A DNA stretch of 64,000 nt, taken from contig NZ_AP022576.1 of the NCBI RefSeq assembly GCF_010730355.1, positions 5,022,001-5,086,000 on the forward strand. Reading direction: 5' to 3'. Below, piece by piece: positions 13,666 through 40,071 of this stretch. Under the pieces are notes generated by a model. It was not told the DNA's origin. It ran no database searches and saw nothing but the letters and a program-made list of their open reading frames with translations. Position numbers and translations under genes: made by a program. The stretch's first letter is position 1, and each line of letters starts with the position of its first letter. Origin of the DNA: Mycobacterium florentinum. GTDB lineage: Bacteria > Actinomycetota > Actinomycetes > Mycobacteriales > Mycobacteriaceae.

Positions 13666-14326
13666 GGGGCGTTCCTTTGCGCGGCGGTACGGTTAACTGA
13701 AATGGTTGCAGCCCAACAGATTCCGCGGGTGGTCCGGCCTTCGCCAGCCGCTGGGCGCGGCGCACCTCTTGATCGGTCGCCACCGGCAGGGTCGCGCAGA
13801 CGGCCGCCACGGTGGGCTCGTAGGGCGAGTCGGCGTCGGCCAGCGCGCCCCGCAACACGTCGATCGGGACCCGGTGTTCGGTCAACAGCCGCCGCCCGAC
13901 CTCGGGATCGACGGTCGCGGCGAATTCGAGAACCACGGGCAGGTGATCCGGCGCCTCGTGCCGCGGCGGCTCCACACCCGCCTTGCGATAGGCGGTGGCG
14001 AACTCGAGCATCTCCCGGCCGCGGTTGCGGGTATCTCCCGCGGTCCAATACGTCAGGTACATCGTGGCGCGGCGCCGCATGTCGAACGTCGCGACGTAGT
14101 CCGTCGCGGCCGCCATCGGCTCGCGGGCGCGCAACGCGAGGGCGGTCCGCTCGAGCAACTCCGCCGCCGGACCGCTGATGTGGCTGAGCAATTCGTCGAC
14201 GGTGTCCAAGCGCCCCGGCAGCTGACCGTCCGGGTAGGCCAACAGCAGCGACGCCGCCTGCCACACCAGCCGGTCCTGCATCGTCCGGGTGGCGACCCGA
14301 TCACGGAATCCGGACGGCAGCCTCAT
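13658..14326 (-). CDS. narJ: Nitrate reductase assembly chaperone NarJ (delta subunit)
   Basis: This 222-residue cytosolic TorD-family chaperone is needed to insert the molybdenum cofactor into NarG before membrane docking. Characteristic text is QDRLVWQAASLLLAYPDG, YVATFDMRRRATMYLTYWTAGDTRNRG and DHLPVVLEFAA. ATG 14326 overlaps the narH stop by four bases (ATGA); upstream in-frame starts lie inside narH and are rejected. The 8-base overlap with narI keeps all four subunits coupled. Confidence 0.94.
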   Translation of the reverse strand: MRLPSGFRDRVATRTMQDRLVWQAASLLLAYPDGQLPGRLDTVDELLSHISGPAAELLERTALALRAREPMAAATDYVATFDMRRRATMYLTYWTAGDTRNRGREMLEFATAYRKAGVEPPRHEAPDHLPVVLEFAATVDPEVGRRLLTEHRVPIDVLRGALADADSPYEPTVAAVCATLPVATDQEVRRAQRLAKAGPPAESVGLQPFQLTVPPRKGTPRV

Positions 14327-25852: not shown

Positions 25853-26467
25853 CTATTGAGCGCGGCGCGGTCGTGGGCGCTCGCTGGCGAAGCCGCGTAC
25901 CACATGGGCGCAGACGAACTCGGTGACTACCTTGGGGTCGTCCATATCCCGGATCGGTGACGGAGTGCTGAACAGCGAGAACAGGATTCGCGCGAACCAT
26001 TCGCCCGCGGCTTCGATGTCGAGGTCCTTGCGGACGTCGCCGGTCAGCTTGGCCGCAGACAGATAGGGCGAGAGGAAGTCCACGCATTCACGCAGCAGCA
26101 CCGCCGCGTCCTTGGTCAGCAGCAGGCTGATCGCTTCTTCGTCGAAGTACTCCTCGGACGCCATCACCCGTCGTGCCTGCGTCACGAATACCGCGGCCGC
26201 ACACAGCTTGTCCTCGAGCGTGCCGCCCCCGTCCATCGCCATGGACATCTCGCGATAGAACCACTCCGACGCATGCTCGGCGCACGCCTCGATGATCGCG
26301 GCCTTGTCGCTGAAGTATTCGTAGATGGTGCTGCGGGACACCCCGGCCCGCTTGGCGATGTCGACGATCGTCGCCTTCTGCAAACCCTGCTTGCCGAAGC
26401 ACCAAAACGCGGACTCGACGATGAGCTCGCGGGTATCGGCCGCCTGGGCCAAGTCCGAAGCCGTCAT
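25853..26467 (-). CDS. TetR-family regulator at the end of the igr-like operon
   Basis: This 204-residue protein has a TetR N-terminal helix-turn-helix (residues about 14-60) with ATIVDIAKRAGVSRSTIYEYF, and a divergent ligand domain. It starts 24 bases after the stop of the Ltp2-like gene, in the same direction, so it is probably the last cistron of the cluster and may repress it, with an acyl-CoA as likely signal. Ligand and operator are unknown; the divergent promoter at 32.6-32.8 kb is the first place to look. It does not look like KstR or KstR2, judged from memory. Confidence 0.82.
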   Translation of the reverse strand: MTASDLAQAADTRELIVESAFWCFGKQGLQKATIVDIAKRAGVSRSTIYEYFSDKAAIIEACAEHASEWFYREMSMAMDGGGTLEDKLCAAAVFVTQARRVMASEEYFDEEAISLLLTKDAAVLLRECVDFLSPYLSAAKLTGDVRKDLDIEAAGEWFARILFSLFSTPSPIRDMDDPKVVTEFVCAHVVRGFASERPRPRRAQ

Positions 26468-26491: not shown

Positions 26492-27658
26492 CTACCCGGC
26501 CGGCGCGAGAATCAAGCCACTCGTCGGCACCCCGGTGCCGGAGGTGACCAACACGTGTTCGACGTTGTCGACCTGGTTGTACGACGTCCCCCGAACCTGA
26601 CGCACGCCTTCGGTGATCCCGTTCATACCGTGGATATAGGCCTCGCCGAGCAACCCGCCATTGGTGTTGATCGGGAATTCCCCGCCCAGCGACAGCCGCT
26701 GCACGGTGGCGAAGTCTTTGGCCTCGCCCCGCCCGCAGAAGCCGAGCTCCTCGAGCTGGGTGAACACGAACGGCGTGAAATGGTCGTAGATGAACGCGGT
26801 TTGGATGTCCTGGGGTTTGAGGCCCGAGTCACGCCATAGCCGGTCGGCGACCACGCCCATCTCCGGGAGTCCGGTGATGTCGTTGCGGTAGTAGCTGGTC
26901 ATCATTTCCCCGTCGGCGGCCGCGCCCTGCGCGGCGGCGGTGATGATCGCCGGCGGTTGCTTCAGGTCGCGGGCGCGTTCGGCACTGGTCACCACCAGTG
27001 CGACACCGCCGTCGCTCTCCTGACAGCAATCCAGCAGTCGCAGCACGGGTTCGACGATCCAGCGGGACTTCTGGTGGTCTTCCAGCGTGATCGGGCGCTG
27101 ATAGAACCACGCGTCGGGATTGGTTGCGGCGTGCTTACGGTCGATGACGGCGATACGGCCGAAGTCGGAGTTGGTGACCCCATAGGTCGACATGTAGCGC
27201 TGCGCGTGCATCGCGACCCACGATGCGGGAGTGAGCAATCCGAATGGCGCGTAGTGCGCCATGAACAGCGGTGTCTCCGCCATGCTGCGTCCGCTGCCGC
27301 CGAACCGGAATCCCGAGCGTTCGTTGAAGGCACGCCAGCACACCACCACATCGGCGACACCGGTTGCGACGGCCATCGCCGCATGCACGACGGTGCCCGC
27401 GGCCGCACCACCGCCGTGATGCACGCGGGAGAAGAAGCTGAGGTCGCCGATGCCGACATTGCGGGCGATGTCGATCTCGTCGCTGGAGTCCATCGTGAAG
27501 GTGACCATGCCGTCGACGTCGGCGGGCGTCAGGCCCGCGTCGTCGAGTGCGGCGCTGACCGCCTCGCACGCCAATTGCAGCTCGCTGCGCCCGGATTCCT
27601 TGGAGAACTCGGTCTGGCCGATGCCCGCGATCGCGGTTGCGCCGGGAAGCCGGCTCAT
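26492..27658 (-). CDS. Ltp2-like thiolase-superfamily aldolase
   Basis: This 388-residue protein of the SCP-x thiolase group resembles Ltp2, the retro-aldolase that cleaves the last side-chain carbons from the steroid C17. Typical blocks are TAIAGIGQTEFSK, SRVHHGGGAAAGTV, the Tyr291 region AFIYDHFTPFV and Tyr341 in EAYIHGMNG. Ltp2 is reported to use tyrosines and not the thiolase cysteine; both tyrosines are present and no Cys lies at the usual nucleophile place. ATG 27658 overlaps the MaoC stop by four bases. It depends on a DUF35 partner, present here as a separate gene (29234-29644). The substrate could be a sterol or another CoA thioester. Confidence 0.82.
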   Translation of the reverse strand: MSRLPGATAIAGIGQTEFSKESGRSELQLACEAVSAALDDAGLTPADVDGMVTFTMDSSDEIDIARNVGIGDLSFFSRVHHGGGAAAGTVVHAAMAVATGVADVVVCWRAFNERSGFRFGGSGRSMAETPLFMAHYAPFGLLTPASWVAMHAQRYMSTYGVTNSDFGRIAVIDRKHAATNPDAWFYQRPITLEDHQKSRWIVEPVLRLLDCCQESDGGVALVVTSAERARDLKQPPAIITAAAQGAAADGEMMTSYYRNDITGLPEMGVVADRLWRDSGLKPQDIQTAFIYDHFTPFVFTQLEELGFCGRGEAKDFATVQRLSLGGEFPINTNGGLLGEAYIHGMNGITEGVRQVRGTSYNQVDNVEHVLVTSGTGVPTSGLILAPAG

Positions 27659-28110
27659 GCGCCCGCTCCGTCGAGCAGGCTGAGGATCGCGGTGCCCGAG
27701 ACATGATCGCCAAGGCTGTTGGCGCCCCTGAAGGTAACCTCGACGAAGTTCTCGCTCCCCGCCCCTTCGGTCTTGCCGGTCACGCTGCCGGTGAAGCGCA
27801 GCGGGTCGTCGGGGAAGCACGGCACGCCCAGGCGGATGGACAGATTCTTGACCATCGCCTCGGGGCCGGCCCAGTCGGTGAGGAAGCGCACGCAATACCC
27901 GTTGGTGGTCAAGATGTTCATGAACAGGTTGGGCGAGCCCTGCTTCTTGGCGTATTCGACATCGTGGTGCACCGGCATGAAGTCACGCGAGGCGATCGCG
28001 CCGGCCACGATCATCGTTGTGGTGATCGGGATTTCGAGCGGGGTGACCTCGTCCCCGATGTTGATGTCGGCCCACTTCAAGGTGGTGGTGCGGTTTGCGG
28101 TCGTCGTCAT
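27655..28110 (-). CDS. MaoC-like enoyl-CoA hydratase, ChsH1-like
   Basis: This 151-residue single hot-dog hydratase carries the catalytic pattern D-x-x-P-V-H-H-D in SRDFMPVHHDVEYAK, as in ChsH1 of the cholesterol igr operon. ChsH1 works only as a complex with the MaoC half of ChsH2; the corresponding half here is probably the protein at 29641-30192. The start at ATG 28110 is 11 bases after the stop of the upstream dehydrogenase. The stop overlaps the aldolase start by four bases. It would hydrate the 2,3-enoyl-CoA made by the two acyl-CoA dehydrogenases. Confidence 0.8.
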   Translation of the reverse strand: MTTTANRTTTLKWADINIGDEVTPLEIPITTTMIVAGAIASRDFMPVHHDVEYAKKQGSPNLFMNILTTNGYCVRFLTDWAGPEAMVKNLSIRLGVPCFPDDPLRFTGSVTGKTEGAGSENFVEVTFRGANSLGDHVSGTAILSLLDGAGA

Positions 28111-28121
28111 CGGTTTCCTTC

Positions 28122-29222
28122 TCAGTAGGTGCTGCCGATACCGGCCAGCTGCGCGGGGGCGGGACCAAGAGCGAGCTCGTTGTGCTTGGCCCAGAGGAAA
28201 TAGCGGTGCAGGGGATAGGTGATGTCGATCCCGATGCCGCCGTGCACGTGCTGGGTGGTGGACGCGACACGGGCGCCCGCGTCGGCGGCCCAGAACTTCG
28301 CGATGCGCGCCGCCCGCCCAGCGTCTGTCAAGGGGCGCTCGTTCGCGATCAGCCAGGCCGCGTGCCACGTGGTCCAGCGCATCGCCTCGACGTCGATGAA
28401 CGCGTCGGCCAGCCGCTGTTGCACGGCCTGGAAGCTGCCGATCGGACGCCCGAATTGCTCACGCCCGCTGGTGTATTCCGCGGCGATCTGCAGGGCCCGC
28501 TCCGCCACGCCGAGCTGGATCGCGCACAGCCCGAGCAGCGCCCGGGTGTACAGGGATTCGATCGGTCCGTCCAGCCGGTCGGCCGCCGAAACGGTTGCAC
28601 CATCGAGGAATACGTCGGCATGCGGTTCACGGCTGGTGGTCGCGACCGGGCGGATCTCGACGCCGGGGGCATCGCAGGCCAGCAGGAACAGACTGACCTG
28701 ATCGTCGTCGGTGCCGGCGGGCACCAGCACGGTGTCGGCGAGCTGGGCGGCCGGTACCAGTTCTTTGGCGCCGTCCAGCCGCCAGTTCTGGCCGTCGCGA
28801 ACGGCTTTGGTGGCCGGGCTCGTCGGGTCGGAACGCCCGGGTTCTTGCAGCCCGGCGGTCACGATGCGTGTTCCGGAGATGACGCCGGGCAAGAATCTTT
28901 GCTGCTGCTCCGGATTCCCGTGCCGGGCAATCGAATCCGCGCCCAGCACCAAGGTCGCATAGGCCGGCACCGGGGCCACGCTGCGACCCACTTCGGCCAG
29001 CAGCACGCCGAGTTCCAGGAAGCCGCCGCCGTTACCGCCCAACGATTCCGGCAACCCGGCACCCAGTAGATCGGAGGCCGCGAGTTCCTTCCAGAGTGCG
29101 GCGTCGTAGCGGATCTCGCCGGCTTCGAGTTCGGTGAGTCGCTCCGGGGTGGCGCGACGCTCGAACAGCTCGCGGGCCAGCTTGCGGATGGTCTCTTGTT
29201 CTTCGGTGAAGGTGAAGTCCAT
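28122..29222 (-). CDS. Acyl-CoA dehydrogenase, ChsE1/FadE28-like subunit
   Basis: This 366-residue flavoprotein has the acyl-CoA dehydrogenase fold from MDFTFTEEQETIRKLAREL to YPLHRYFLWAKHNELALG. Text such as GLPESLGGNGGGFLELGVLLAEVGRSVAPVPA and HVHGGIGIDITYPLHRYF resembles the smaller, FAD-contacting partner of the heterotetrameric alpha2beta2 dehydrogenases (FadE28-type) that act on short steroid side chains. It is separated from its probable partner (30189-31394) by the MaoC and DUF35 genes, an order different from the adjacent pair in the igr operon. Confidence 0.8.
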   Translation of the reverse strand: MDFTFTEEQETIRKLARELFERRATPERLTELEAGEIRYDAALWKELAASDLLGAGLPESLGGNGGGFLELGVLLAEVGRSVAPVPAYATLVLGADSIARHGNPEQQQRFLPGVISGTRIVTAGLQEPGRSDPTSPATKAVRDGQNWRLDGAKELVPAAQLADTVLVPAGTDDDQVSLFLLACDAPGVEIRPVATTSREPHADVFLDGATVSAADRLDGPIESLYTRALLGLCAIQLGVAERALQIAAEYTSGREQFGRPIGSFQAVQQRLADAFIDVEAMRWTTWHAAWLIANERPLTDAGRAARIAKFWAADAGARVASTTQHVHGGIGIDITYPLHRYFLWAKHNELALGPAPAQLAGIGSTY

Positions 29223-29233
29223 GACTCCTGGGC

Positions 29234-29644
29234 CTAGCTGCTCGGCCGGAACTGGTGCAGCACAAGGTCTTCGGAACCAGAACCGTCGAATGCCTGGTAG
29301 AAAACCTCGACCGGCATTCCGACGGTAACGTCCGCCGGGTCGATCTCACACAGGTTCGACACCAGCCGCACCCCTTCGTCGAGCTCCACAAGCACCACGA
29401 TGTAGGGGTACTCGAAGAACGGGAACTTGGGTTCGTGCGGCATCACGTAGCTGTAGACGGTGCCGCGGCCCGAGGATTCGATGGCTTCCCACTCCAGGGA
29501 ACGGCAGTGCGGGCACATGGGCCGCGCGGGATTGCGCAGCGTTCCACATCCCTTGCAGCGCTGGATCAGCAGCTTGTGCTCGCGCAGCCCGTTCCAGAAG
29601 AACTCGGTGTCCGGACTGATGGCCGGGGCCAGCCGGGTGCTCAT
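29234..29644 (-). CDS. DUF35/OB-fold zinc-ribbon protein (free-standing ChsH2 C-terminal domain)
   Basis: This 136-residue protein has a zinc ribbon CKGCG-TLRNPARPMCPHC near residues 31-48, followed by an OB-fold (GTVYSYVMPHEPKFPFFEYPYIVVLVELDEG). In ChsH2 this same domain follows the hydratase on one chain and binds Ltp2 to give the active aldolase. Here it starts at ATG 29644, four bases overlapping the upstream MaoC stop (ATGA), so the two domains are separate but translationally coupled. It is the likely partner of the Ltp2-like protein. Confidence 0.85.
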   Translation of the reverse strand: MSTRLAPAISPDTEFFWNGLREHKLLIQRCKGCGTLRNPARPMCPHCRSLEWEAIESSGRGTVYSYVMPHEPKFPFFEYPYIVVLVELDEGVRLVSNLCEIDPADVTVGMPVEVFYQAFDGSGSEDLVLHQFRPSS

Positions 29645-30192
29645 GCGGTCTCCGGCTTGAAGCGCAGCACCCGAAATCGCTGCCGGCCCAACACTTCGCC
29701 GTTCTGATCGGAGTAGGTGATCACCCAGGTCAGGAAGAAGCCGGATCCCTTCGCCGTCTTCTTCTCCTCGGAGACCTCCTCGAACACCGACGTCGCGCTG
29801 ATCACGTCGCCGAGCCGGGGGTAGCGCTCGATCTCGAATTCCGAGTTGGTCGCCACCGTGCTGCTGTATCCGGCGTCGTCGAGGAACGCCGTGGGGTTGT
29901 CCTTGATCTCCATCGGCGCGCCGCCGCGCTCTCCGATCCCCTCCAGCTTGGGCGACGGCATCGTCCAGGTCTGCAACATCACCGGCGGCGACACGATGCC
30001 GGTGAACCGCGACGCGGCCGCGAACTCCGGATCGAGGTACACCGGGTTCATGTCGTCGAGCGCGTAGGCCCAATGCCGGATCATCGGCTGGTTCACCGGA
30101 TCCGGTGCCACGGTGGGCTTTCCGCTGCCCGCGGTGGGCTTATTGACGAGCCCCCGCAACTTGGCGAGGAACTCGGGATCTTGGTTGGTCAC
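29641..30192 (-). CDS. MaoC-like protein, free-standing ChsH2 N-terminal domain
   Basis: This 183-residue hot-dog protein has LDDMNPVYLDPEFAAAS at the site where active hydratases have D-x-x-P-x-H; Tyr replaces the catalytic His. In ChsH1-ChsH2, ChsH1 supplies the active site and ChsH2 the acyl pocket, which fits this change. The N-terminal lead (MTNQDPEFLAKLRGLVNKPT) resembles ChsH2. GTG 30192 overlaps the dehydrogenase stop by four bases, and its own stop overlaps the DUF35 start. Confidence 0.82.
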   Translation of the reverse strand: MTNQDPEFLAKLRGLVNKPTAGSGKPTVAPDPVNQPMIRHWAYALDDMNPVYLDPEFAAASRFTGIVSPPVMLQTWTMPSPKLEGIGERGGAPMEIKDNPTAFLDDAGYSSTVATNSEFEIERYPRLGDVISATSVFEEVSEEKKTAKGSGFFLTWVITYSDQNGEVLGRQRFRVLRFKPETA

Positions 30193-31394
30193 GTGCTGGA
30201 TCCTCCTGACTTGTCTGTGGCCCGTAGGTCGCGAGGTGCTCGCGGCATGCCCAATCCCGCCATAGCGATGATGTCACGTTGAATTTCGTTGGCTCCGCCG
30301 CCGAACGTGTTGATGACCGCGAACCGGTACGCGGACTCCAGTGCCCCGCGCAGCGGTGCATCGTTGCCCCGGCGTAATCCGTTGTGGTCCAGCACTTCCA
30401 GCAATTGGCGGGCCACCTGTTGGGTGAGTTCGGTGCCGAACACCTTGGCGGCCGACGCCTCGCCCATGTTGAGCACGCCCTTGGTCATCGCCGCATTGAC
30501 CCGCATGTTGACCAGCTTGTACGCGGCGACCTGCGCTTCGACCCGGGCCAGGGTCAGCCGAACCCACGGCTGGTCGATGACGCGCCCGTCGTCGAGCTCG
30601 GTGCGACGGGCCCAGTCCAGTGTCTTCTCGAACAGCGGCTCGAGCGCACCGAGATTGCCCAGGGCCGCGCGCTCGAAGTTCAACTGCGTGGTGATCAGCT
30701 GCCAGCCTTGATGCTCACCGCCGACCAGGGCGCTGGCCGGGACCCGCACGTTGTCGTAGAACGTGTAGAAGGTGGAAATGCCCGGCATGGTGTGCAACGG
30801 CTGCCAGGAGAAACCGGGCGACGACGTCGGCACGATGAGGATCGAAATCCCCTTGTGCTTCTTGGCATTCGGATCGGTGCGGGCGGCCAGCCAGATGTAG
30901 TCGGCATACGCGGCGCCGCTGGTGAACATCTTCTGCCCGTTGATCACGTAGTCGTCTCCGTCGCGAACCGCGGTGGTACGTACCGATGCCAGGTCGCTGC
31001 CGGCCCCGGGCTCGGAATACCCGATCGCGAACTCGACGCTCCCGTCGAGAATCGACGGCAGGAACCTCTGCTTCTGTTCTTCGGTGCCGCACTGCATCAG
31101 CGTCGGCCCGACCGTGTTGAGCGTCACCAGCGGGATCGGAGCGTCGACCCGGCGTGCCTCCTCGGAGAAGATGAACTGCTCGATCGCCGAGAAGCCGCGC
31201 CCGCCATACTCTTTGGGCCAGCCGACGCCGAGCAGATCGGCCGCGGCCAGGGCGCGCACGCACTCGCGTACTTCCGGCCCGCCCTCGATGCGATCCTTGA
31301 TCGCGTCAATGCGCTCGGGTGTCATCACCCGTTCCAGCGTGCTGCGGATCTCGGCGCGCAACTGCTCCTGCTCGGGTGTGTACTCGAGGTGCAT
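30189..31394 (-). CDS. Acyl-CoA dehydrogenase, ChsE2/FadE29-like subunit
   Basis: This 401-residue flavoprotein carries the standard blocks YSEPGAGSDLASVRT (flavin-adenine loop), NGQKMFTSGA and C-terminal GGGANEIQRDIIAMAG, typical of the FadE29-like partner that carries the catalytic base. It starts 3 bases after the P450 stop and is linked to the MaoC gene by a GTGA overlap. With the FadE28-like subunit at 28122-29222 it should form an alpha2beta2 dehydrogenase for a bulky acyl-CoA. Confidence 0.83.
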   Translation of the reverse strand: MHLEYTPEQEQLRAEIRSTLERVMTPERIDAIKDRIEGGPEVRECVRALAAADLLGVGWPKEYGGRGFSAIEQFIFSEEARRVDAPIPLVTLNTVGPTLMQCGTEEQKQRFLPSILDGSVEFAIGYSEPGAGSDLASVRTTAVRDGDDYVINGQKMFTSGAAYADYIWLAARTDPNAKKHKGISILIVPTSSPGFSWQPLHTMPGISTFYTFYDNVRVPASALVGGEHQGWQLITTQLNFERAALGNLGALEPLFEKTLDWARRTELDDGRVIDQPWVRLTLARVEAQVAAYKLVNMRVNAAMTKGVLNMGEASAAKVFGTELTQQVARQLLEVLDHNGLRRGNDAPLRGALESAYRFAVINTFGGGANEIQRDIIAMAGLGMPRAPRDLRATDKSGGSST

Positions 31395-31397
31395 CGC

Positions 31398-32600
31398 TCA
31401 GCCGCCCGTCCCGAGCCGCACCGGCATGCGCTTGACTCCCGGCACCATCGTGGCCCGCATCCGGTCCACCTCACCCACCAACTCCAGCGTCGGGAAGCGC
31501 CGCAGCAGTTCGTCGAACATGACCGTGGCTTCCAGGCGCGCCAATTGGGCACCGATGCAGGAATGTTCGCCGCAACCGAACGCGATGTGCGGGTTCGGAT
31601 GCCGGGTCACCCTGAATTCTTCGGAGTCCGAACCGAATATGTCCTCATCCCGGTTGGCCGAGCCGTACAGCATCACCACCACCTCGCCGGCGCGGATCCG
31701 CTGACCGCGGATCTCGACATCGGCGGTCGCGGTGCGGGCCATGTGAACCACCGGGCTGTTCCACCGCAGCATCTCCTCGACGGCGGCCGGGATCAGCGTC
31801 GGGTCCTCGACCAGCAGGCGGCGCTGGCCGGGGTGGGCGATCAGCGCGAGTGTGCCGAGCGCGATTAGATTGCGGGTGGTTTCGTTTCCGGCGACCAGCA
31901 ACAGGAACGCGAAGTTGAGCAGGTCCTCGTCGGTGAGCCGTTCCTCGTCGATCTCGGCGTCGGCCAACACGGACAGCAAATCGTCGCGGGGATGGATGCG
32001 CCGGGCGGCGATCAGCTGCTGGAAGTACTCGTAGAGTTGCCCGGCCGCCACCAGCGGGTCGAGCTCGATCTCCGGATCGGCCGTTCCGGTGGCCGCATCC
32101 GACCAGGCCCGGAATTGCTCCCAGTCGTCGGGCGGGGCGCCGATCAACTCGGCGATCATCCTCGTCGGAAGGGGAGCGGCGATCTGTTCGGCGAACTCGT
32201 GGACCGAACCCGGTTCGATGCCATCGAGAATGCCCGCCACGATCTCGCGGATCTTCGGCTCGAGCACCGACACCCGGCGCCGGGTGAATCCCGAGTTGAT
32301 CAGCTTGCGCATCTGCCGGTGGCGCGGTGGGTCGGTGAAGATGAGGCTGCCCTGCTGCACCGGGTTGGGCAGCTGCGGATCGGGAATGGTGACGCCCTGG
32401 GTCGAGGTGAACAGGGCAGGGTTGCTCGACACGAAGCGGATGTCCTCGTACTTCAGCAGCGCCCAGAAATTGGTGACGTCGTTCCAGCACACCGGCGCGC
32501 TTGCGCGCAGTTCCCGGTACGCCGGGTAGGGATTGCCCGCATAGAAGTCGGGGGAGTGCAATGGAAAACTCGGCGAGCGCAGCGGTGGATGAGTCTGCAC
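31398..32600 (-). CDS. Cytochrome P450 (first of two paralogs)
   Basis: This 400-residue soluble P450 has the heme loop FGCGEHSCIGAQLAR (Cys near residue 348), the I-helix AGNETTRN and an ExxR in EEMLRWN-type text. GTG 32600 was chosen: it follows GGGAGG at 6 bases and gives VQTHPPLRSPSF, parallel to the MQTSFPLHSPDF start of the paralog at 36491-37654; ATG 32642 is the alternative and has no ribosome-binding site. It heads the igr-like operon, where cyp125 stands in the cholesterol version, but its heme loop differs from CYP125. It would need a ferredoxin such as FdxC. Substrate unknown. Confidence 0.88.
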   Translation of the reverse strand: MQTHPPLRSPSFPLHSPDFYAGNPYPAYRELRASAPVCWNDVTNFWALLKYEDIRFVSSNPALFTSTQGVTIPDPQLPNPVQQGSLIFTDPPRHRQMRKLINSGFTRRRVSVLEPKIREIVAGILDGIEPGSVHEFAEQIAAPLPTRMIAELIGAPPDDWEQFRAWSDAATGTADPEIELDPLVAAGQLYEYFQQLIAARRIHPRDDLLSVLADAEIDEERLTDEDLLNFAFLLLVAGNETTRNLIALGTLALIAHPGQRRLLVEDPTLIPAAVEEMLRWNSPVVHMARTATADVEIRGQRIRAGEVVVMLYGSANRDEDIFGSDSEEFRVTRHPNPHIAFGCGEHSCIGAQLARLEATVMFDELLRRFPTLELVGEVDRMRATMVPGVKRMPVRLGTGG

Positions 32601-32669
32601 GGCCGGCCTCCCTGGCGCTTCGGCGGGATCGCAATCCGACATATTGCCGCAAAGTGTCCTGCGACGTTG

Positions 32670-32756: not shown

Positions 32757-32811
32757 GGTGCATGGGTGTACACCGGGTGTTTAGATGACCGACCGTCGGG
32801 TGAGGATGCAG

Positions 32812-34281
32812 ATGACCGAGCTACAAACTCCGAAAACTCTTGTCGACACCTACCAGCTCTACATCGACGGCAACTGGGTCGAGCCGGCCGACGGTCGCTA
32901 CGACGACATCTCCCCGGCCAGCGAACAGGTCATCGCCACCGCGCCCGACGCGAGCATCGCGCAGGTCGGCGACGCGATCGCGGCCGCGCGGCGTGCCTTC
33001 GACAGCGGACCGTGGGGCACGATGAGCGCCGCGCAGCGCGCCGCGTGCCTCAGTCAGCTGGGCGATGCGCTGATGAAGCACGCCGACGACTTCTTCGCGC
33101 TGTCTCAGTCGGAGTGGGGCTGCGTCGCCAACGAGCGCGTCATGCAGATCGACGGCGCCGGGTTCATGTCCATCTACGCCGCGCAGCTCGCCACCGAGCT
33201 GGCCGACCAAGAGGTCACCGGGATGGGCGCGGGAACCACCGTGCTGCGCCACGAACCGCTGGGCGTGGTGTCGGTGCTGACGCCGTGGAATTTCCCGCAC
33301 TGTCTCAACGTCATGAAGCTGAATCACGCCCTGGCCGCGGGAAACACCGTGGTGCTCAAGCCCTCACCGCTGACACCGCTGGCCGGACTTGCGCTCGCGC
33401 GGATCATCGACGAATTCACCGACATACCACCGGGTGTCGTCAACGTGGTCACTCCCTCGGGCGTCGAGGCGGCCAAGCTGCTCACCACGGATCCGCGCAT
33501 CGACATGGTCAGCTTCACCGGCAGCTCCGTCGTCGGGCGCCAGGTCATGTCCGCCGCCGGGGACACGATGAAGAGGATCTTGCTGGAGCTCGGCGGCAAG
33601 TCGGCGAGCATCGTGCTCGACGACACGGAGATCACCGACGACATGCTGCAGCAGATGCTGTTCGACGGCTGCTCGCTGCACGCCGGGCAGGCCTGCATCC
33701 TGCACAGCCGGCTGCTGCTCCCCGATTCGCTGCACGACGAGGTCGTCGATCGGCTCGCCGCACTGGCCCGGGCGGTCAAGGTCGGCGACCCCACCGATCC
33801 CGAGGTGCAGATGGGTCCGCTGATCAGCGCGGCGCAGCGCGACCGGGTCGAGGCGCACGTCGTCGGTGCGCTCAATGACGGCGCCACGCTGGTGACCGGC
33901 GGGCGTCGTCCGCCGGGACTGGACTCCGGCTTCTACTTCGAGCCGACGATTCTGACCGGCGTCGCGCCGAATTCGACTATCGCGCAAGAGGAAGTGTTCG
34001 GTCCGGTGATGACCGTGCTGCGCTACCGCGACGACGAGGACGCCGTCGCGATCGCGAACAACTCGCAGTACGGACTTTCCGGCGCCGTCTGGGGTGGCGA
34101 CGTGGATCGCGCCGTCCGCATCGCGCGCCGCATCCGCACCGGGCAGATCGCCGTCAACGGTTGCAGTCCGGGTGGCGCACCGTTCGGCGGCTTCAAACTG
34201 AGCGGACTGGGCCGGGAGGGCGGTGGCATCGGCGGGATACACCAGTACATGGAGCAGATGGCCATCGGGGTACCCGCGTGA
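32812..34281 (+). CDS. NAD(P)-dependent aldehyde dehydrogenase
   Basis: This is a 489-residue enzyme of the ALDH superfamily. Motifs: LTPWNFPHCLNVMKLNHAL (cofactor loop), LLELGGKSASIVLDD with the catalytic Glu, and the nucleophile Cys in HAGQACILHSRLLLP. The start is uncertain: ATG 32785, 32806 or 32812; the last has GTGAGG at a normal distance. It is divergent from the P450 operon and overlaps the CoA transferase by four bases (GTGA). A P450 oxidising a terminal methyl to alcohol and aldehyde, this enzyme, and a CoA transferase would give an acyl-CoA, so the three form a plausible activation route. Substrate unknown. Confidence 0.88.
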   Translation: MTELQTPKTLVDTYQLYIDGNWVEPADGRYDDISPASEQVIATAPDASIAQVGDAIAAARRAFDSGPWGTMSAAQRAACLSQLGDALMKHADDFFALSQSEWGCVANERVMQIDGAGFMSIYAAQLATELADQEVTGMGAGTTVLRHEPLGVVSVLTPWNFPHCLNVMKLNHALAAGNTVVLKPSPLTPLAGLALARIIDEFTDIPPGVVNVVTPSGVEAAKLLTTDPRIDMVSFTGSSVVGRQVMSAAGDTMKRILLELGGKSASIVLDDTEITDDMLQQMLFDGCSLHAGQACILHSRLLLPDSLHDEVVDRLAALARAVKVGDPTDPEVQMGPLISAAQRDRVEAHVVGALNDGATLVTGGRRPPGLDSGFYFEPTILTGVAPNSTIAQEEVFGPVMTVLRYRDDEDAVAIANNSQYGLSGAVWGGDVDRAVRIARRIRTGQIAVNGCSPGGAPFGGFKLSGLGREGGGIGGIHQYMEQMAIGVPA

Positions 34282-36494
34282 CGGGACCCCTCACCGGGCT
34301 CCATGTCGTCGAAATCGCTTCTGAAATCTCGGGTCCCTATGCGGCCAAGCTGCTTGTCGACCTCGGTGCCGACGTCGTCAAAATCGAGCCGCCCGACGGA
34401 GATCCGTTGCGGCAGTGGGGCCCGTTTCCGCCCGGGCGTGCCGGCCGGGAAGGCGGACTCTTCGAGTACCTCAATGCCGGCAAACGTGTTGCCGCGCTGG
34501 ACGATGCCCGTGAGCTGATCACGCACGCGCACCTGCTGGTCGAAAACTGTCTGCCCGGCACGCTGGACCTATGGGGATTCGACCGCGACACTCTGAACGA
34601 GATCAACCGGAACCTGTTGGTGCTCCGGATATCTCCCTTTGGGCAGTCCGGGCCGTGGCGAGGCCGGTCGGCCACGTCGCTGACCCTGCAGGCGGTGTCG
34701 GGTTGGGTCAGCGCCCGCGATCCCGACCGCCCGCCGGTGCAGGTGGGCGCCCGGATCTCCGAATATGTCGCGGGCGCCTATGGCGCGTTGGGCGCCTTGA
34801 CCACGCTGCGACTGCGGCCCGCTGGTCAGGTGCGGGAAGTCGACGTCTCCGAATTCGAGTCGCTGTTGTCGACGCTGCCCTATCCGATGCTGATGGCGCA
34901 GAAGATGCAAAGTCTCGGCTTGCCCAGCAACGCTCGGGGAGCCCCGATGCTGGGTGTCGTTCGCGCGGCCGACGGCTGGGTAGGGATCAACTGTCTGACG
35001 GGTCAGCACTGGCTGGACGTGTGTGCGATGCTCGGCCTGCCAGAGTTCGCCGAGCAACAGATCGCGATCATGATGGGTGGCCCGGAGCGCGCCGAATTCT
35101 ATGTTCGCGCAGAGCGTTTGCTCGCTGAGCAAACCGTCGCGGAGATCGTCGAGCTGTGTCAGGCGTTGCGCATTCCGGCCGCCCCGGTCAACGACGGCGC
35201 CACCGTGCTGGAATGTCCGCAATACGTCACACGCGAGTTCTTTGTCGATGACGGGGAATTCCGGCGCCCCGGATCGCCGTTCCGGTTCACCAAGGGGCCG
35301 GTGGGACAGCATCAACCGGCGCCCGCGCAGACGTCGGGGCCCCTTCCGTTCGCGGGACTGAAAGTCCTTGACCTGAGCACCTTCTGGGCCGGGGCCTATT
35401 TGACCTGCTACCTGGGCGCGTTCGGCGCCGACATCGTCAAGGTGGAGTCCATTCAACGGCCCGACGGTTTTCGCTACTCGGGCGCGTTTCCGTTCGAGGG
35501 CGATGACTGGTACGAGCGCAGTGGACTATGGCAGGCCACCAACCTCAATAAGAAAGATCTGACGCTGGACCTGACGTCGCCGCGGGGCCTGGAGATCGCC
35601 AAGCGGCTGGTCGCGCAGGCCGATGTTGTGGTGGAGAACTTCTCACCGCGCGTCGTCGAAAACTTCGGTCTGGACTACGAGTCCCTGGTGGCATTGAATC
35701 CCGACGTGATATTCGTCAGGATGCCAGGTTTCGGCTTGCACGGGCCTTGGCGCGATTACGTCGGTTGGGCGTTGAACTTCGAGCAGACAGCCGGGATGTC
35801 AGCAGTCACGGGATATCCCGACGGGCCGCCGTGCAACCCGCAAGGGCCCGCCGACCCGATCGTCGGCGTGCACGCAGGGGTCGCGCTGCTCGCCGCGCTC
35901 GAACATCGCACCCGTACCGGCTCAGGCCAGTTGATCGAGGTCGCCCAGATCGAGGTCGCCGCGTGTGTGACCGCCGAGCCGGTGATCGAGTATTCGATGA
36001 ATGGGGTCGTCTCGCCGCGGCAAGGCAACCGCCAGCGTGGCTACCTGCAGGGCGTCTACCCGACGGCCGCCGACGGTGCTTGGGTAGCGGTGTCGCTGCC
36101 CGACGACGGCGCGCTCGACCACGACGCGTTCGATGAGCTGGTCGCCGCCTGGACGCACCCGCAGCAGCCGGCCGACATCGTTGAAACCCTTCGTGCACAA
36201 GGTATTGCGGCCGAGCAGGTGATCACCGGCGAGCAGATGTATGACCCGGAATTCGCCGTCCAACTCGACGCGCGCGGCTTCTACGAAGAGTTCGAACATC
36301 CCATCACCGGCCCGCACCGCTATCCCGGCTGGCCATTTCGCATCACCCCCGGGCCGCGCCGCCACCACCGCAGCGCCCCACCCACCCTCGGGCAGCACAA
36401 CGCGGAAATCCTGCGCGCCCTGGGTTTGTCCGACGACGACGTGGCCGCGCTGCGGGCAGAACGGGTGATCGGCGAGCGGGTGCAGGGCGCCTAG
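34278..36494 (+). CDS. Double-length family III (CaiB/BaiF) CoA transferase
   Basis: This 738-residue protein is two CaiB domains in tandem (about 1-345 and 355-738). Each half opens with an L-x-V-x-[ED]-x-[AS] block (LTGLHVVEIASEISGP; FAGLKVLDLSTFWAG) and LG-AFGAD/ADVVK-type text. The catalytic Asp position is Asp526 in PADPIVGVHAG of the second half, but the equivalent of the first half is Glu162 in GARISEYVAGAYG. So only the second half has a normal nucleophile. GTG 34278 overlaps the ALDH stop by four bases, and the TAG stop overlaps the P450 stop on the other strand (shared CTAG). It likely loads CoA on an acid made by the P450 and ALDH. Confidence 0.87.
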   Translation: MTGPLTGLHVVEIASEISGPYAAKLLVDLGADVVKIEPPDGDPLRQWGPFPPGRAGREGGLFEYLNAGKRVAALDDARELITHAHLLVENCLPGTLDLWGFDRDTLNEINRNLLVLRISPFGQSGPWRGRSATSLTLQAVSGWVSARDPDRPPVQVGARISEYVAGAYGALGALTTLRLRPAGQVREVDVSEFESLLSTLPYPMLMAQKMQSLGLPSNARGAPMLGVVRAADGWVGINCLTGQHWLDVCAMLGLPEFAEQQIAIMMGGPERAEFYVRAERLLAEQTVAEIVELCQALRIPAAPVNDGATVLECPQYVTREFFVDDGEFRRPGSPFRFTKGPVGQHQPAPAQTSGPLPFAGLKVLDLSTFWAGAYLTCYLGAFGADIVKVESIQRPDGFRYSGAFPFEGDDWYERSGLWQATNLNKKDLTLDLTSPRGLEIAKRLVAQADVVVENFSPRVVENFGLDYESLVALNPDVIFVRMPGFGLHGPWRDYVGWALNFEQTAGMSAVTGYPDGPPCNPQGPADPIVGVHAGVALLAALEHRTRTGSGQLIEVAQIEVAACVTAEPVIEYSMNGVVSPRQGNRQRGYLQGVYPTAADGAWVAVSLPDDGALDHDAFDELVAAWTHPQQPADIVETLRAQGIAAEQVITGEQMYDPEFAVQLDARGFYEEFEHPITGPHRYPGWPFRITPGPRRHHRSAPPTLGQHNAEILRALGLSDDDVAALRAERVIGERVQGA

Positions 36495-37654
36495 CTGCCG
36501 AAGCGAACCGGCATGCGTGTCACCAGGGGCAGCATCGTGGCCGGCATCCGGTGCACCGCGCCGGCCAACTCCACATCGGGAAAGCGATCCAGCAGCTCAC
36601 CGAAGAACACCGTCGCCGTCAGGCGGGCCAATTGCGCACCGACACAGGCATGTTCACCGCAGCCGAAAGCGATGTGCGGGTTCGGGCTCCGGGTCACCCT
36701 GAATTCCTCGGAGTCGGAACCGAATACCTCCTCGTCCCGGTTGGCCGACCCGTATAGCAGCACCACCATGTCGCCCTCGGCGATCCGCTGACCGCGAATC
36801 TCGACCTCGGCCGTCGCGGTGCGGGCCATGTGTGTCACCGGGCTGGTCCAGCGCAACATCTCCTCGACGGCGCCCGCGATCTTCGCCGGATCCTCGACGA
36901 GTAGCCGGCGTTGATCGGGATGCGCGATCAACGCCTCAGTACCGAGCGCGAGCAGACTGCGGGTGGTCTCGTTACCGGATGCCAGCAGCAGAAACGAAAA
37001 GTCAAGCAGCTCTTCGTCGCTGAGTCGATGCCCGTCGGACTGCGCGTCGGAAAGCACCGAGAACAACTCGGCGTCCCGAACCGCAATCAGCTGGCGCACG
37101 CAATGGAAGAGCCGGCCGCCGGTCTCGAAGGGGTCGAGATCGGTCGCGGTCTGGGCGGTGCCGATCACGGTATCCGTCCACGCCCGGAATTGTTCCCAGT
37201 CGTCGCGCCCCACACCGAGCAGCGCGGCGATCACTCGCGCGGGCAGGGGCGCGGCGATCGTGTCGATGAAATCGTGCACGGAGCCGGGTGTAACGCCATC
37301 GAGTATCCCGCCCACGATCTCGCGGATTGTCGGTTCCAGCAGGGCGGCTTGGCGCCGGGTGAATCCGCAGTTGATCAGCGTGCGCAGCTGCCGGTGCCGC
37401 GGCGGGTCCATGAAGATGAGGCTGTTCTGCTGGACCGGATTCGGCAGGCCCGGCGCGGGAATGTTGATTCCCCTGGTGGAGGTGAACAGGGCCGGATTGG
37501 TCGACACGAAACGGATGTCGTCGTAGCGCAGCAACGCCCAGAACTTGGCGACGTCGTTCCAGCACACCGGCGCGCTCGCGCGCAGCTGCCGGTACACCGG
37601 GTATGGATCGCCCGCGTAGAAGTCGGGGGAGTGCAACGGAAACGAAGTCTGCAT
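36491..37654 (-). CDS. Cytochrome P450 (second paralog)
   Basis: This 387-residue P450 is very similar to the one at 31398-32600 (shared SPDFYAGDPYPVYRQLRAS, NDVAKFWALL, EVEIRGQRI, GSANRDEEVFGSDSEEFRVTR). The heme loop is FGCGEHACVGAQLAR and the I-helix SGNETTRS. Its ATG 37654 is preceded by GGAAGGCAGG. It is the product of a duplication in this island, now separated from its twin by ALDH and CoA transferase. It converges on the CoA transferase with overlapping stops at 36491-36494. The two may split positions or stereochemistry of one substrate. Confidence 0.9.
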   Translation of the reverse strand: MQTSFPLHSPDFYAGDPYPVYRQLRASAPVCWNDVAKFWALLRYDDIRFVSTNPALFTSTRGINIPAPGLPNPVQQNSLIFMDPPRHRQLRTLINCGFTRRQAALLEPTIREIVGGILDGVTPGSVHDFIDTIAAPLPARVIAALLGVGRDDWEQFRAWTDTVIGTAQTATDLDPFETGGRLFHCVRQLIAVRDAELFSVLSDAQSDGHRLSDEELLDFSFLLLASGNETTRSLLALGTEALIAHPDQRRLLVEDPAKIAGAVEEMLRWTSPVTHMARTATAEVEIRGQRIAEGDMVVLLYGSANRDEEVFGSDSEEFRVTRSPNPHIAFGCGEHACVGAQLARLTATVFFGELLDRFPDVELAGAVHRMPATMLPLVTRMPVRFGS

Positions 37655-37704
37655 GGCAACAGCCTGCCTTCCGTCGTCGGCACGTCGCATGCCAAGCTGC
37701 TGAC

Positions 37705-38613
37705 ATGGTCTTCGAAATCGCCCGCCCAAAACTAGAAGGAAACGTCGCTGTCGGCGAGGACCGCCAAATCGGGTTCGCCGAATTCGGTGACCCGCAGGGC
37801 CGGGCGGTGTTCTGGCTGCACGGCACACCGGGCGCCCGCCGGCAGATTCCGACCGAGGCCCGCGTCTACGCCGAGGACCACGGCATCCGGTTGATCGGCC
37901 TGGACCGCCCCGGAATCGGATCGTCGACACCGCATCTCTACCGGAACATCGCCGCCTTCGCCGACGACCTGCGCACGATTGCCGACATTCTCGGCATAGA
38001 CAAGATGGCCGTCATCGGCCTGTCCGGCGGCGGTCCGTACGCCCTCGCGTCAGCCGCGCGGCTGCCCGATCGGGTGGTGGCGGCCGGGATCCTCGGCGGC
38101 GTCGCGCCGTTCGTCGGCGACGAAGGCATCACCAGCGGCCTGATGAACCTGGGCAAGCGGGTGGCGCCGCTGTTGCGCCTGGGCGGTGACCCGTTGCGGA
38201 TCGGCGCCAGCCTGCTGGTCCGGTCGATCCGTCCGGTCGCGAACACCGCGCTGTCTCTGTACGCCGCGATATCGCCCGAAGGCGACCGGCGGCTGCTCAC
38301 CCGGCCCGAGTTCGGGGCCATGTTCCTCGACGACCTCCTCAACGGCAGCCGCAAGCAGCTGGCCGCGCCGTTCAACGACGTCGTCCTGTTCACCCAGGAC
38401 TGGGGCTTCCGGCTGGACGAGATCAAGGTCCCGGTCCGCTGGTGGCATGGCGACAGCGACCACATCGTGCCCTTTGCCCACGGCGAGCACGTGGTGGCCA
38501 AGCTGGCCGACTGCGAACTGTTCGTGCTGCCGGGCGAAAGCCACCTCGCCGGGTTGGGCCGTGGCGAAGAGATCCTCTCCACGCTGATGAAAATATGGGA
38601 TGAGCAGGCCTGA
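37705..38613 (+). CDS. Alpha/beta-fold hydrolase (Rv1191-like)
   Basis: This 302-residue hydrolase has the oxyanion HGTPGARR, the nucleophile elbow GLSGGGPYALA (Ser), an Asp in HGDSDHIVPF and His in LPGESHLAGLG. The family includes epoxide hydrolases, esterases and haloperoxidase-like enzymes; no substrate can be read. ATG 37705 is the only good in-frame start. It precedes fadD36 by 36 bases on the same strand, as in M. tuberculosis (Rv1191 and Rv1193 flank Rv1192), so they may be co-transcribed. Confidence 0.85.
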   Translation: MVFEIARPKLEGNVAVGEDRQIGFAEFGDPQGRAVFWLHGTPGARRQIPTEARVYAEDHGIRLIGLDRPGIGSSTPHLYRNIAAFADDLRTIADILGIDKMAVIGLSGGGPYALASAARLPDRVVAAGILGGVAPFVGDEGITSGLMNLGKRVAPLLRLGGDPLRIGASLLVRSIRPVANTALSLYAAISPEGDRRLLTRPEFGAMFLDDLLNGSRKQLAAPFNDVVLFTQDWGFRLDEIKVPVRWWHGDSDHIVPFAHGEHVVAKLADCELFVLPGESHLAGLGRGEEILSTLMKIWDEQA

Positions 38614-38649: not shown

Positions 38650-40071
38650 GTGCTGCTGGAATCGCTGAACCCCTCTGCCGTCACCGCCACCGACATCCCC
38701 GATGCGGTCAAGATCGACGGCACCGTATTGAGCCGCAGTGACCTGGTCGGTGGTGCGACGTCGGTGGCCGAACGCGTCGCCGGCGCGGACCGGGTTGCGG
38801 TGCTGGCCACCCCGAGCGTGTCGACCGTGCTGGCGATCACCGGCTGCCTGATCGCCGGCGTCCCGTTCGTCCCGGTGCCCTCCGATGTCGGCGCGGCCGA
38901 ACGCCGGCACATGTTGACCGACTCCGGCGCGCGGGCCTGGTTGGGCCCCGAGCCCGACGAGCTGGAGGGCTTGGCGCACATCCCGGTGCGCCTGCACGCC
39001 CGCTCCTGGCACCGCTATCCCGAGCCGGCGCCCGAGGCCACCGCCATGGTCATCTACACCTCGGGCACCACCGGAGCGCCCAAGGGTGTGGTGGTCAGCC
39101 GCCGGGCGATCGCCGCCGACATCGATGCGCTGACGCAGGCCTGGCAGTGGACACCTGACGACGTGCTGGTGCACGGGTTGCCGCTGTTCCACATCCACGG
39201 GTTGGTGCTGGGCCTGCTCGGCTCGTTGCGGGTCGGAAATCGCTTCGTACACACCGGAAAACCGACACCGGCCGGCTATGCCAAGGCCCACACGGAATCC
39301 GGCGGCACCCTGTACTTCGCGGTGCCGACGGTGTGGTCGCGGGTGGTGGGCGATCAGGCGTCCGCCGAGGCGCTGCGCTCGGCACGGCTGCTGGTGTCGG
39401 GTAGCGCGGCGCTGCCGGTGCCGGTGTTCGACCGGCTCGAGCAGCTGACCGGGCACCGGCCCATCGAACGCTACGGCGCCTCGGAGTCGTTGATCACGGT
39501 GTCGACGCGCGCCGACGGTGAGCGCCGCCCGGGCTGGGTCGGCCTGCCGCTGGCCGGGATCGAGACCAGACTGCTCGACGACGCGGGCAACTCCGTTCCG
39601 CATGACGGGGAAACCGTTGGAAAGCTTCATGTTCGGGGTCCGACCCTGTTCGACGGATACCTGAATCGGCCGGAGGCCACCGCCGAGGTTTTCGATGCCG
39701 ACGGCTGGTACCACACCGGCGATGTCGCGGTGGTCGACGCCGGGGGGATGCACCGCATCGTCGGCCGCGAATCGGTCGACCTGATCAAATCGGGCGGATA
39801 CCGCATCGGTGCGGGCGAAATCGAGACGTCGCTCCTCGGGCATCCGGGTGTGCAGGAAGCGGCCGTGGTCGGCATGCCCGACGACGACCTGGGCCAGCGC
39901 ATCGTCGCGTTCGTCGTCGGCGCGTCGGATCTCAACACCGATGAACTGATCAACTTTGTCGCCCAAGACCTTTCGATACACAAGCGGCCGCGCGAGGTGC
40001 GGCTCGTAGAAGCGTTGCCGCGCAACGCGATGGGCAAGGTCGTCAAGAAGCAGCTGCTGTCCGAGGGCTGA
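38650..40071 (+). CDS. fadD36: Acyl-CoA synthetase FadD36
   Basis: This 473-residue ANL enzyme is short because the N-terminal domain is compact. AMP-binding motif YTSGTTGAPKGVV (near residue 137), YGASES and the hinge YHTGDVAVV with a C-terminal Lys in NAMGKVVKKQL are all present, so adenylation and thioesterification should both work. GTG start at 38650. In M. tuberculosis the ortholog is Rv1193. Chain length is not predictable. Confidence 0.9.
   Translation: MLLESLNPSAVTATDIPDAVKIDGTVLSRSDLVGGATSVAERVAGADRVAVLATPSVSTVLAITGCLIAGVPFVPVPSDVGAAERRHMLTDSGARAWLGPEPDELEGLAHIPVRLHARSWHRYPEPAPEATAMVIYTSGTTGAPKGVVVSRRAIAADIDALTQAWQWTPDDVLVHGLPLFHIHGLVLGLLGSLRVGNRFVHTGKPTPAGYAKAHTESGGTLYFAVPTVWSRVVGDQASAEALRSARLLVSGSAALPVPVFDRLEQLTGHRPIERYGASESLITVSTRADGERRPGWVGLPLAGIETRLLDDAGNSVPHDGETVGKLHVRGPTLFDGYLNRPEATAEVFDADGWYHTGDVAVVDAGGMHRIVGRESVDLIKSGGYRIGAGEIETSLLGHPGVQEAAVVGMPDDDLGQRIVAFVVGASDLNTDELINFVAQDLSIHKRPREVRLVEALPRNAMGKVVKKQLLSEG

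Follow-up and report, generated by a model that had tools for sequence, protein, structure and literature searches.

A probable third class of hydratase/retro-aldol side-chain cleavage operon, with ChsH2 divided into two genes, in Mycobacterium florentinum

What kind of side-chain cleavage operon lies in a 64,000-nucleotide stretch of the Mycobacterium florentinum genome, and what might it cleave? The stretch (assembly GCF_010730355.1, contig NZ_AP022576.1, here C1, positions 5022001-5086000 of the 6.22 Mb genome; hereafter the window) carries on its minus strand, in this order, genes for a cytochrome P450 (P450a), an acyl-CoA dehydrogenase (ACADa), a MaoC-type protein (MaoC1), a DUF35 protein, a second acyl-CoA dehydrogenase (ACADb), a second MaoC-type protein (MaoC2), an Ltp2-type aldolase and a TetR-family regulator. 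Divergent from P450a, on the plus strand, stand genes for an aldehyde dehydrogenase (ALDH) and a double type III coenzyme A (CoA) transferase (CaiB2). An earlier note on this sequence had read the set as a second operon like igr, the cholesterol side-chain operon, and its parts list (P450, two ACADs, two MaoC proteins, DUF35 and an Ltp2-like protein) was recovered in full, each part in its place. The operon is real and conserved, and on balance we consider it probable that it represents a third class of hydratase/retro-aldol side-chain cleavage operon beside igr and cas, the bile-acid operon, acting on a bulky acyl-CoA as set out in the working model below. The closest named relatives of the organism by core genes are M. 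ahvazicum, M. triplex and M. montefiorense.

Enzymes of the operon and their kinship with igr and cas

The Ltp2 protein exceeds the NCBIfam PRK07855 cut-off (680 bits against 469) and matches T. curvata Ltp2 (6ok1) at 589 bits, the next match in the PDB lying at 189 bits. Two of its tyrosines align to the catalytic Tyr pair of TcLtp2, the roles of which are described in PMC12329534 (excerpt). Both motifs, YDHF and the Tyr of E[AG]Y[IL]HG, occur in all 52 Ltp2 proteins aligned across the three classes, while the Sal-type motif YDCY/YDCF is absent from the window-type proteins in this alignment, which have YDHF instead. Window-type Ltp2 departs at 17 positions, including H81, G88, N163, F299, N333 and L336, from residues that igr and cas share; F299, N333 and L336 adjoin the catalytic Tyr motifs in sequence, and the differences would fit another substrate. 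The DUF35 protein matches the ChsH2 DUF35 of 6ok1 (129 bits), and Pfam reads it as zf-ChsH2 plus OB_ChsH2_C, MaoC1 as FAS1_DH_region and MaoC2 as MaoC_dehydratas. All PDB matches of MaoC1 (E <= 0.001) belong to one chain type of 4w78/4wnb (104 bits), with NPVY over NPIY, and the best match of MaoC2, which carries RDFMPVHHD, is the other chain type (105 bits). The two entries use the names ChsH1 and ChsH2 the opposite way round; we take the NPIY chain as ChsH2 because PMC11321319 (excerpt) places the replacement of the catalytic His by Tyr in ChsH2. One MaoC protein of the window thus holds the Asp/His dyad and the other Tyr for His, as in ChsH1-ChsH2, which bears out the division of labor that had been proposed for the pair. 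ACADa matches 4x28_A (408 bits), with the Glu of NFERAAL aligned to NHERVAL, presumably the catalytic residue; ACADb reaches 295 bits to Tcur3481 and 259 bits to 4x28_D, and we take these matches of ACADa and ACADb to be the two subunits of steroid ACAD heteromers. All these enzymes are of the ChsE/ChsH/Ltp2 families with catalytic residues retained, and the proposed fit to a bulky acyl-CoA is supported. P450a has CYP125MRCA as its best PDB match (339 bits; the genome's own CYP125 reaches 469 bits), CYP125, CYP142 and CYP124 following at 237-262 bits. Membership of CYP125 needs >40% identity; P450a, 35% identical to the own CYP125 and placed with the neighboring P450b and its orthologues in a clade (support 100, starred) apart from CYP125, was ruled out as a member on both grounds.

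A true igr operon, for which the earlier note had asked, is present in the same genome at C1:4277084-4283024 (L106; such numbers are our locus handles), with a fused ChsH2 of 316 residues. Compared with its products, the window proteins are 67-69% (Ltp2), 48% (ACADa), 41% (DUF35), 40% (MaoC1), 39% (MaoC2), 35% (P450a) and 31% (ACADb) identical. Set against igr of M. tuberculosis (cyp125-fadE28-fadE29-chsH2-chsH1-ltp2, compared via the own copy), the window type has the same enzyme families, the same pairing of one catalytic with one Tyr-for-His hydratase subunit, and the same YDHF and second Tyr in Ltp2. It differs in gene order, in its split ChsH2, in forming its own clade, in having its own TetR and palindrome instead of KstR, in its non-CYP125 P450, and in the divergent ALDH-CaiB2 pair, which is unmatched in 20 kb of L106.

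Among 35 regions around Ltp2 matches (32 picked so as to favor multi-copy genomes, and three around the second copy described below), tblastn found 18 in igr order, 10 in cas order, four of the window type (L188, L208-L210) and three different. The cas-order regions run ACADa-ChsH2(fused)-ACADb-ChsH1-Ltp2, and we identify them as the cas operon because neighboring ligases exceed the NCBIfam cut-offs for CasG (four) and CasI (three), 7/7 of those scored, in 5/10 loci. The order ACAD-ChsH2-ACAD-ChsH1-Ltp2 is common to the window type and to casL-M-N-O-P, the bile-acid operon of Rhodococcus (PMC8399759, excerpt); cas differs in its fused ChsH2, in its nearby CasG/CasI ligases and in its separate clade, and no P450 match was seen near cas loci in the stretches fetched. 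No protein of the M. florentinum genome passes the CasG cut-off, the best score being 464 of 750, whereas the same model gives 848-1004 in four cas loci. In a concatenated six-gene tree of 35 rows (midpoint root, quick search), igr (15), cas (10) and the window type (7) each form a clade at 100, starred, with three further rows on long branches, and a branch of 100, starred, puts the window type on the cas/proteobacterial side. It is also coherent in single trees of Ltp2 (100), ACAD, MaoC1 and MaoC2 (96 to 100, all starred). The trees that had been called for place the operon outside both the igr and the cas clade. As a kind, "igr-like" fails on the cas order, the separate clade, the P450 and the lack of an exact KstR box, and the cholesterol substrate it implied is not supported. 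We rejected an igr paralogue as a kind on gene order, clade and KstR, and a cas orthologue on clade and on the absence of CasG over the cut-off.

Other systems resemble the window type in part. The proteobacterial Scd2/Shy2/Sal2 type (Comamonas ORF40-44; a Novosphingobium ES2-1 plasmid, L116) has the same enzyme set, with a ChsH2 that is fused in nature and an Ltp2 58-63% identical (L116, L118); no ALDH-CaiB2 pair is annotated in the proteobacterial stretches fetched. Shy-Sal, in which Sad oxidizes the aldehyde derived from the C5 bile-acid side chain, follows the same hydratase/aldolase/ALDH logic, but Sal has YDCY and Gln in place of the second Tyr, where the window type has YDHF and Tyr (PMC12329534, excerpt). 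The atf1-chsH4-chsE6-kstR3 operon of Mycolicibacterium neoaurum, compared by its description, shares a free DUF35 gene by the aldolase and its own regulator; it has four named genes and no MaoC (PMC10398937, excerpt). In a literature search that left subscription papers mostly outside its coverage, no title or abstract opening describes this operon.

The division of ChsH2, claimed earlier together with its ATGA overlap, is constant. The MaoC1 frame stops before DUF35 in the window, in 80/80 related loci and in L188 and L208-L210, and the 120 MaoC1 homologues listed, out of 1536, measure 174-196 residues, leaving no room for DUF35. The split is not chance, because all 80 loci share it and the listed homologues are too short for DUF35; the hallmark of ChsH2, a DUF35 in the same chain as its MaoC domain, was not found in the window type. 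The ChsH2 DUF35 is the partner of Ltp2 (PMC12329534, PMC11321319; excerpts), and the split takes away the covalent tether between hydratase and aldolase. A natural split is workable, since the MaoC and DUF35 halves of C. testosteroni TA441 ORF40, made apart, retained both activities (PMC12502768, excerpt). Three further arrangements were seen. A Rhodococcus rhodochrous plasmid (L113, 10544-13176) has another split form with two CaiB, two successive MaoC, a free DUF35 and an Ltp2 (63-64%); close by are FAD oxidoreductases and a P450 that shares 41% identity with the own CYP125. The ibuprofen plasmid pIBU218 (L247) has an Ltp2-like protein (55%) with a free OB-fold protein, an enoyl-CoA hydratase and CaiB. 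An actinobacterium of another family (L252) has a window-type MaoC1-MaoC2 pair divergent from a cas-order operon, with no DUF35 found adjoining.

Relatives, loss of the upper module and a second copy

A genome scan with MaoC1 gave 252 relatives, of which the best 80 were kept; their titles name Mycobacterium and, once, Mycolicibacterium. All 80 loci hold MaoC1, DUF35 and MaoC2, 78 hold Ltp2 (none in L031, near a contig end; partial in L034) and 79 hold ALDH (off contig in L057). Both ACADs are found in 51 loci, together with CaiB2 in 48/51 and P450a in 50/50 readable cases. The 29 ACAD-less loci lack ACADa throughout and ACADb in 26 (a fragment persists in three), and have CaiB2 in one, P450a in seven and an AMP-binding ligase in 28, while MaoC1, DUF35, MaoC2, Ltp2 and ALDH stand in 29/29. 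In 14 of them the DUF35 and MaoC2 frames abut or overlap (L028, L038, L051, L053, L054, L056, L087, L090, L092, L097-L099, L101 and L104, all free of an ACADb scar). Of the remaining 15, 14 still have the end or the beginning of ACADb between the two genes (0.08 and 0.0 in shuffled sequence; the scar expressions were tuned by eye), so at least these 14 are deletions, with the frames on either side left intact. In a 78-row tree, from which three incomplete loci were omitted and to which the window was added (17/75 branches starred), ACAD loss requires 18 changes, at least 10 of them on well supported branches. In independent pairs ACADa and ACADb were lost together in 10/10 and CaiB2 with them in 8/10, the other two showing no difference.

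The ratio of non-synonymous to synonymous substitution (dN/dS) in eight ACAD-less pairs is 0.057 for Ltp2, 0.080 for MaoC1, 0.104 for MaoC2, 0.138 for DUF35 and 0.140 for ALDH; the corresponding values in eight complete pairs are 0.033, 0.049, 0.069, 0.106 and 0.119. Thus in these eight pairs the core, and ALDH with it, is under purifying selection, slightly relaxed, where local ACADs are gone. Two Ltp2 genes were read irregularly: that of M. triplex (L026) falls in two frames, as if frame-shifted, and in L239 the larger part alone was matched. Of six mycobacterial genomes without window-type Ltp2 that were inspected, five have an empty site (L232, L234-L237) and the sixth is L233.

The whole unit, CaiB2/ALDH-P450a-ACADa-MaoC1-DUF35-ACADb-MaoC2-Ltp2-TetR, recurs in L188, from another genus, and as a second copy (copy 2) in L208-L210, with enzymes 57-83% and TetR 49-62% identical to those of the window. 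Copy 2 is complete in these three (enzymes 60-83%) and partial in a fourth (L123). Its ACADa was used as a probe (88% or more) in 50 genomes, namely the 29 ACAD-less ones and 21 of the 51 complete ones, and was found in 21: 18/29 ACAD-less versus 3/21 complete (Fisher p 0.0012) or, sorted by P450a, 18/22 without versus 3/28 with it (p 3.8e-7). So redundancy with copy 2 is probably one route to loss of the upper module (P450, CaiB2 and ACADs), and another route exists; eight of the 14 scar-free genomes (L028, L038, L051, L054, L056, L098, L099, L104) show no copy 2. Window-type Ltp2 (E <= 1e-200) occurs in 85/198 Mycobacterium genomes, about two in five; typed by identity alone, 53 are copy 1 (84% or more) and 42 copy 2 (80-83%), with both in 10 genomes. 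Many slow-growing species are among the carriers. A phylum scan of 396 genomes found MaoC1 (E <= 1e-50) in five, one of them outside the genus (L252). After the CaiB2 of one copy-2-type operon (L244, 2289-9603, genome G264) come four MlaD or Mce4_CUP1 genes of mce-type transport; none occurs among the few copy-2 neighbors scanned in G374.

Organization and control of the locus

The coordinates are collected in the table below. Genes overlap by 4 bases at ACADa/MaoC1 (GTGA) and at MaoC1/DUF35 and MaoC2/Ltp2 (both ATGA), the other junctions being gaps of 3, 11, 11 and 24 bases. The GTG at 32600, which the earlier note had used, is the better start of P450a, because the alternative ATG falls inside the palindrome. 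Beyond CaiB2 follow P450b, an alpha/beta hydrolase, the AMP-binding ligase and a metabolite/H+ symporter-type transporter; PucR/PutA/ProDH genes flank the locus on one side and DapD/DapE-like genes on the other. The AMP-ligase and the alpha/beta hydrolase were dropped as pathway members, the AMP-ligase standing at the five empty sites as well. The two P450 genes lie on either side of ALDH-CaiB2, and in relatives P450b frequently turns up incomplete or goes undetected; by Pfam the genome has 91 P450 matches, certain genes being split across two rows. Respiratory nitrate reductase beta and gamma subunits (Pfam) lie elsewhere in the window, at 12931-15906.

Features of the side-chain operon and its neighbors, in window coordinates
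Feature	Position	Strand	Basis or remark
P450a, putative tail hydroxylase	31398..32600 (alternative ATG 32642)	-	own clade; best PDB match ancestral CYP125
ACADa, likely catalytic subunit of steroid-type ACAD heteromer	30189..31394	-	4x28_A match; 48% to own igr FadE29
MaoC1, ChsH2 MaoC domain as free protein, GTG start	29641..30192	-	NPVY, Tyr replaces catalytic His
Free DUF35 (zinc ribbon and OB fold), expected Ltp2 partner	29234..29644	-	TcChsH2-DUF35 match, Pfam
ACADb, likely partner subunit of ACADa	28122..29222	-	Tcur3481 and 4x28_D matches
MaoC2, ChsH1-type catalytic hydratase subunit	27655..28110	-	RDFMPVHHD
Ltp2-type aldolase	26492..27658	-	PRK07855; Tyr291 (YDHF) and Tyr341 (EAYIHG) retained
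TetR-family regulator, final gene of unit	25853..26467	-	family match
Operator-like palindrome GACA..TT.....AA..TGTC, just downstream of presumed P450a promoter	32638..32658	no strand	pattern search
ALDH, divergent partner	32785..34281	+	in 79/80 related loci
CaiB2, double type III CoA-transferase	34278..36494	+	4-base overlap with ALDH
P450b, less conserved neighbor	36491..37930	-	71% identical to P450a
AMP-binding acyl-CoA ligase, PRK07787 type	38650..40071	+	not diagnostic: occurs at operon-empty sites too

The palindrome (searched as GGACA-N10..16-TGTC[C/G] or GACA-N11..15-TGTC) is found in 59 of 62 ALDH-P450a regions, against a shuffled mean of 1.0; the set comprises those of the window, L188, L208-L210 and 57 of the 80 related loci, of which 56 have P450a and one, L061, lacks a full copy. 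It is retained in 18 of 22 loci without P450a (shuffled 0.52; L061 is counted in both sets), and the window pattern has one exact site genome-wide. Upstream of it lie the conserved words ATTGACAG (47/62) and GTAGACAC (54/62), which read as a putative promoter. The KstR box has the motif TnnAACnnGTTnnA; no exact box was found in the window, and the own igr promoter has two. From the conservation of this predicted operator, the TetR protein, not KstR, would control both directions.

Working model, rival readings and meaning

In the proposed pathway P450a would oxidize a terminal methyl group on a bulky tail, which is probably isoprenoid or resembles a steroid, and CaiB2 would load CoA onto the resulting acid. 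By homology, an ACADa-ACADb heteromer would form the alpha,beta-enoyl-CoA, which MaoC1-MaoC2 would hydrate, MaoC2 supplying Asp/His and MaoC1 holding the bulky part. Ltp2, bound to the free DUF35 protein, would then perform the retro-aldol cleavage of the beta-hydroxyacyl-CoA, Tyr291 serving as the base and Tyr341 as the acid by analogy with TcLtp2, yielding acetyl- or propionyl-CoA and a carbonyl product, and ALDH may oxidize an aldehyde that comes from the aldolase or from the P450. MaoC1/MaoC2-DUF35-Ltp2-ALDH appears to be the retained core and the upper module to be locally dispensable; a second copy elsewhere, seen through its ACADa, accompanies the loss in 18/29 genomes. With ALDH constant, an aldehyde product is as likely as a 17-ketone; the constant partner suggests that an aldehyde may arise as in Shy-Sal-Sad, although the P450 may be its source (L233). 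As the operon is not of the igr kind, 17-hydroxy-3-oxo-pregn-4-ene-20-carboxyl-CoA, the compound put forward in the earlier note, is one candidate substrate among others. A more tentative extension, which we regard as possible, is that the core serves as a free-standing Ltp2-class C-C scissor that yields aldehydes from several enoyl-CoAs, its upper module perhaps supplied in trans by the paralogous operon and its aldolase freed by the ChsH2 split.

Three other readings were weighed against a third class. The locus could encode isoenzymes for the same C3 side chain of cholesterol, turning 17-hydroxy-3-oxo-pregnene-20-carboxyl-CoA into androstenedione and propionyl-CoA and kept for dosage or particular conditions; the closeness of Ltp2 to its igr counterpart, both catalytic tyrosines and the ChsH2 type of MaoC1 speak for it, but the remaining parts are 31-48% identical, the clade is separate, the exact KstR boxes are those of the igr promoter, Ltp2 departs at 17 positions, and a ketone product needs neither ALDH nor CaiB2, so that we hold this to be unlikely. 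That it is the mycobacterial form of the bile-acid C3 side-chain operon is more improbable still: the gene order of casL-M-N-O-P and the supported branch shared with cas and proteobacterial operons agree with it, while the separate clade, the split ChsH2, a leading P450 that is superfluous for a carboxylated substrate and the low CasG score disagree. Nor do we think it likely that the substrate is a non-steroid branched acyl-CoA (a terpenoid, a methyl-branched lipid or an aryl-propionate), with DUF35-Ltp2 working as in other free-DUF35 aldolases. Free DUF35 or OB-fold proteins do accompany Ltp2-like proteins and CaiB elsewhere (L113, L117 and L247), and P450a stands near the CYP124/142/125 group in its PDB list; against this, the PDB likeness of MaoC1 is limited to the steroid-type ChsH2 MaoC domain, and both characterized sister clades use steroids in the literature excerpts.

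The third-class reading itself meets contrary evidence. In the ACAD tree ACADb joins the mycobacterial ACAD pair L124/L127 at 84, unstarred. The link between copy 2 and loss runs in the same direction in five well supported independent pairs and is not significant (p 0.06-1); no copy 2 was seen in 11/29 ACAD-less genomes, where drafts may hide it, and 7 of these 11 keep P450a. The dN/dS of core and ALDH is 1.2-1.7 times higher in ACAD-less than in complete pairs, and 4 of 145 gene/locus combinations (five genes, 29 loci) are not spanned by one match, namely ALDH of L028 and L038 and Ltp2 of L072 and L090; slow decay may be under way in certain ACAD-less lineages. L233 keeps TetR-P450a-ALDH and the palindrome without the core, a 3' scar of Ltp2 remaining, so ALDH may serve the P450. 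The AMP-ligase stands in 5/5 empty sites and is hence untied to the operon. As to control, a strict promoter-consensus scan found none, a reversed control pattern of the palindrome likewise has one genomic site, and a one-mismatch KstR-like site occurs in 3/62 of the ALDH-P450a regions, that of the window included. Two auxiliary ideas were revised: entry of an unsaturated acid through the ligase retained in 28/29 ACAD-less loci was dropped, since the same ligase stands at empty sites, and ALDH as proof of an aldehyde from the aldolase is weakened by L233.

If the third class is accepted, labels such as "lipid-transfer protein" or "cholesterol side chain" can hide three different operons. With a window-type aldolase in about two in five of the sampled genomes, many mycobacteria, certain opportunistic pathogens included, probably break down a hitherto unnamed bulky lipid. 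The window type provides a natural experiment on whether hydratase and aldolase need DUF35 as their tether, and lineages that have repeatedly shed the upper module open a route towards the real substrate of the core.

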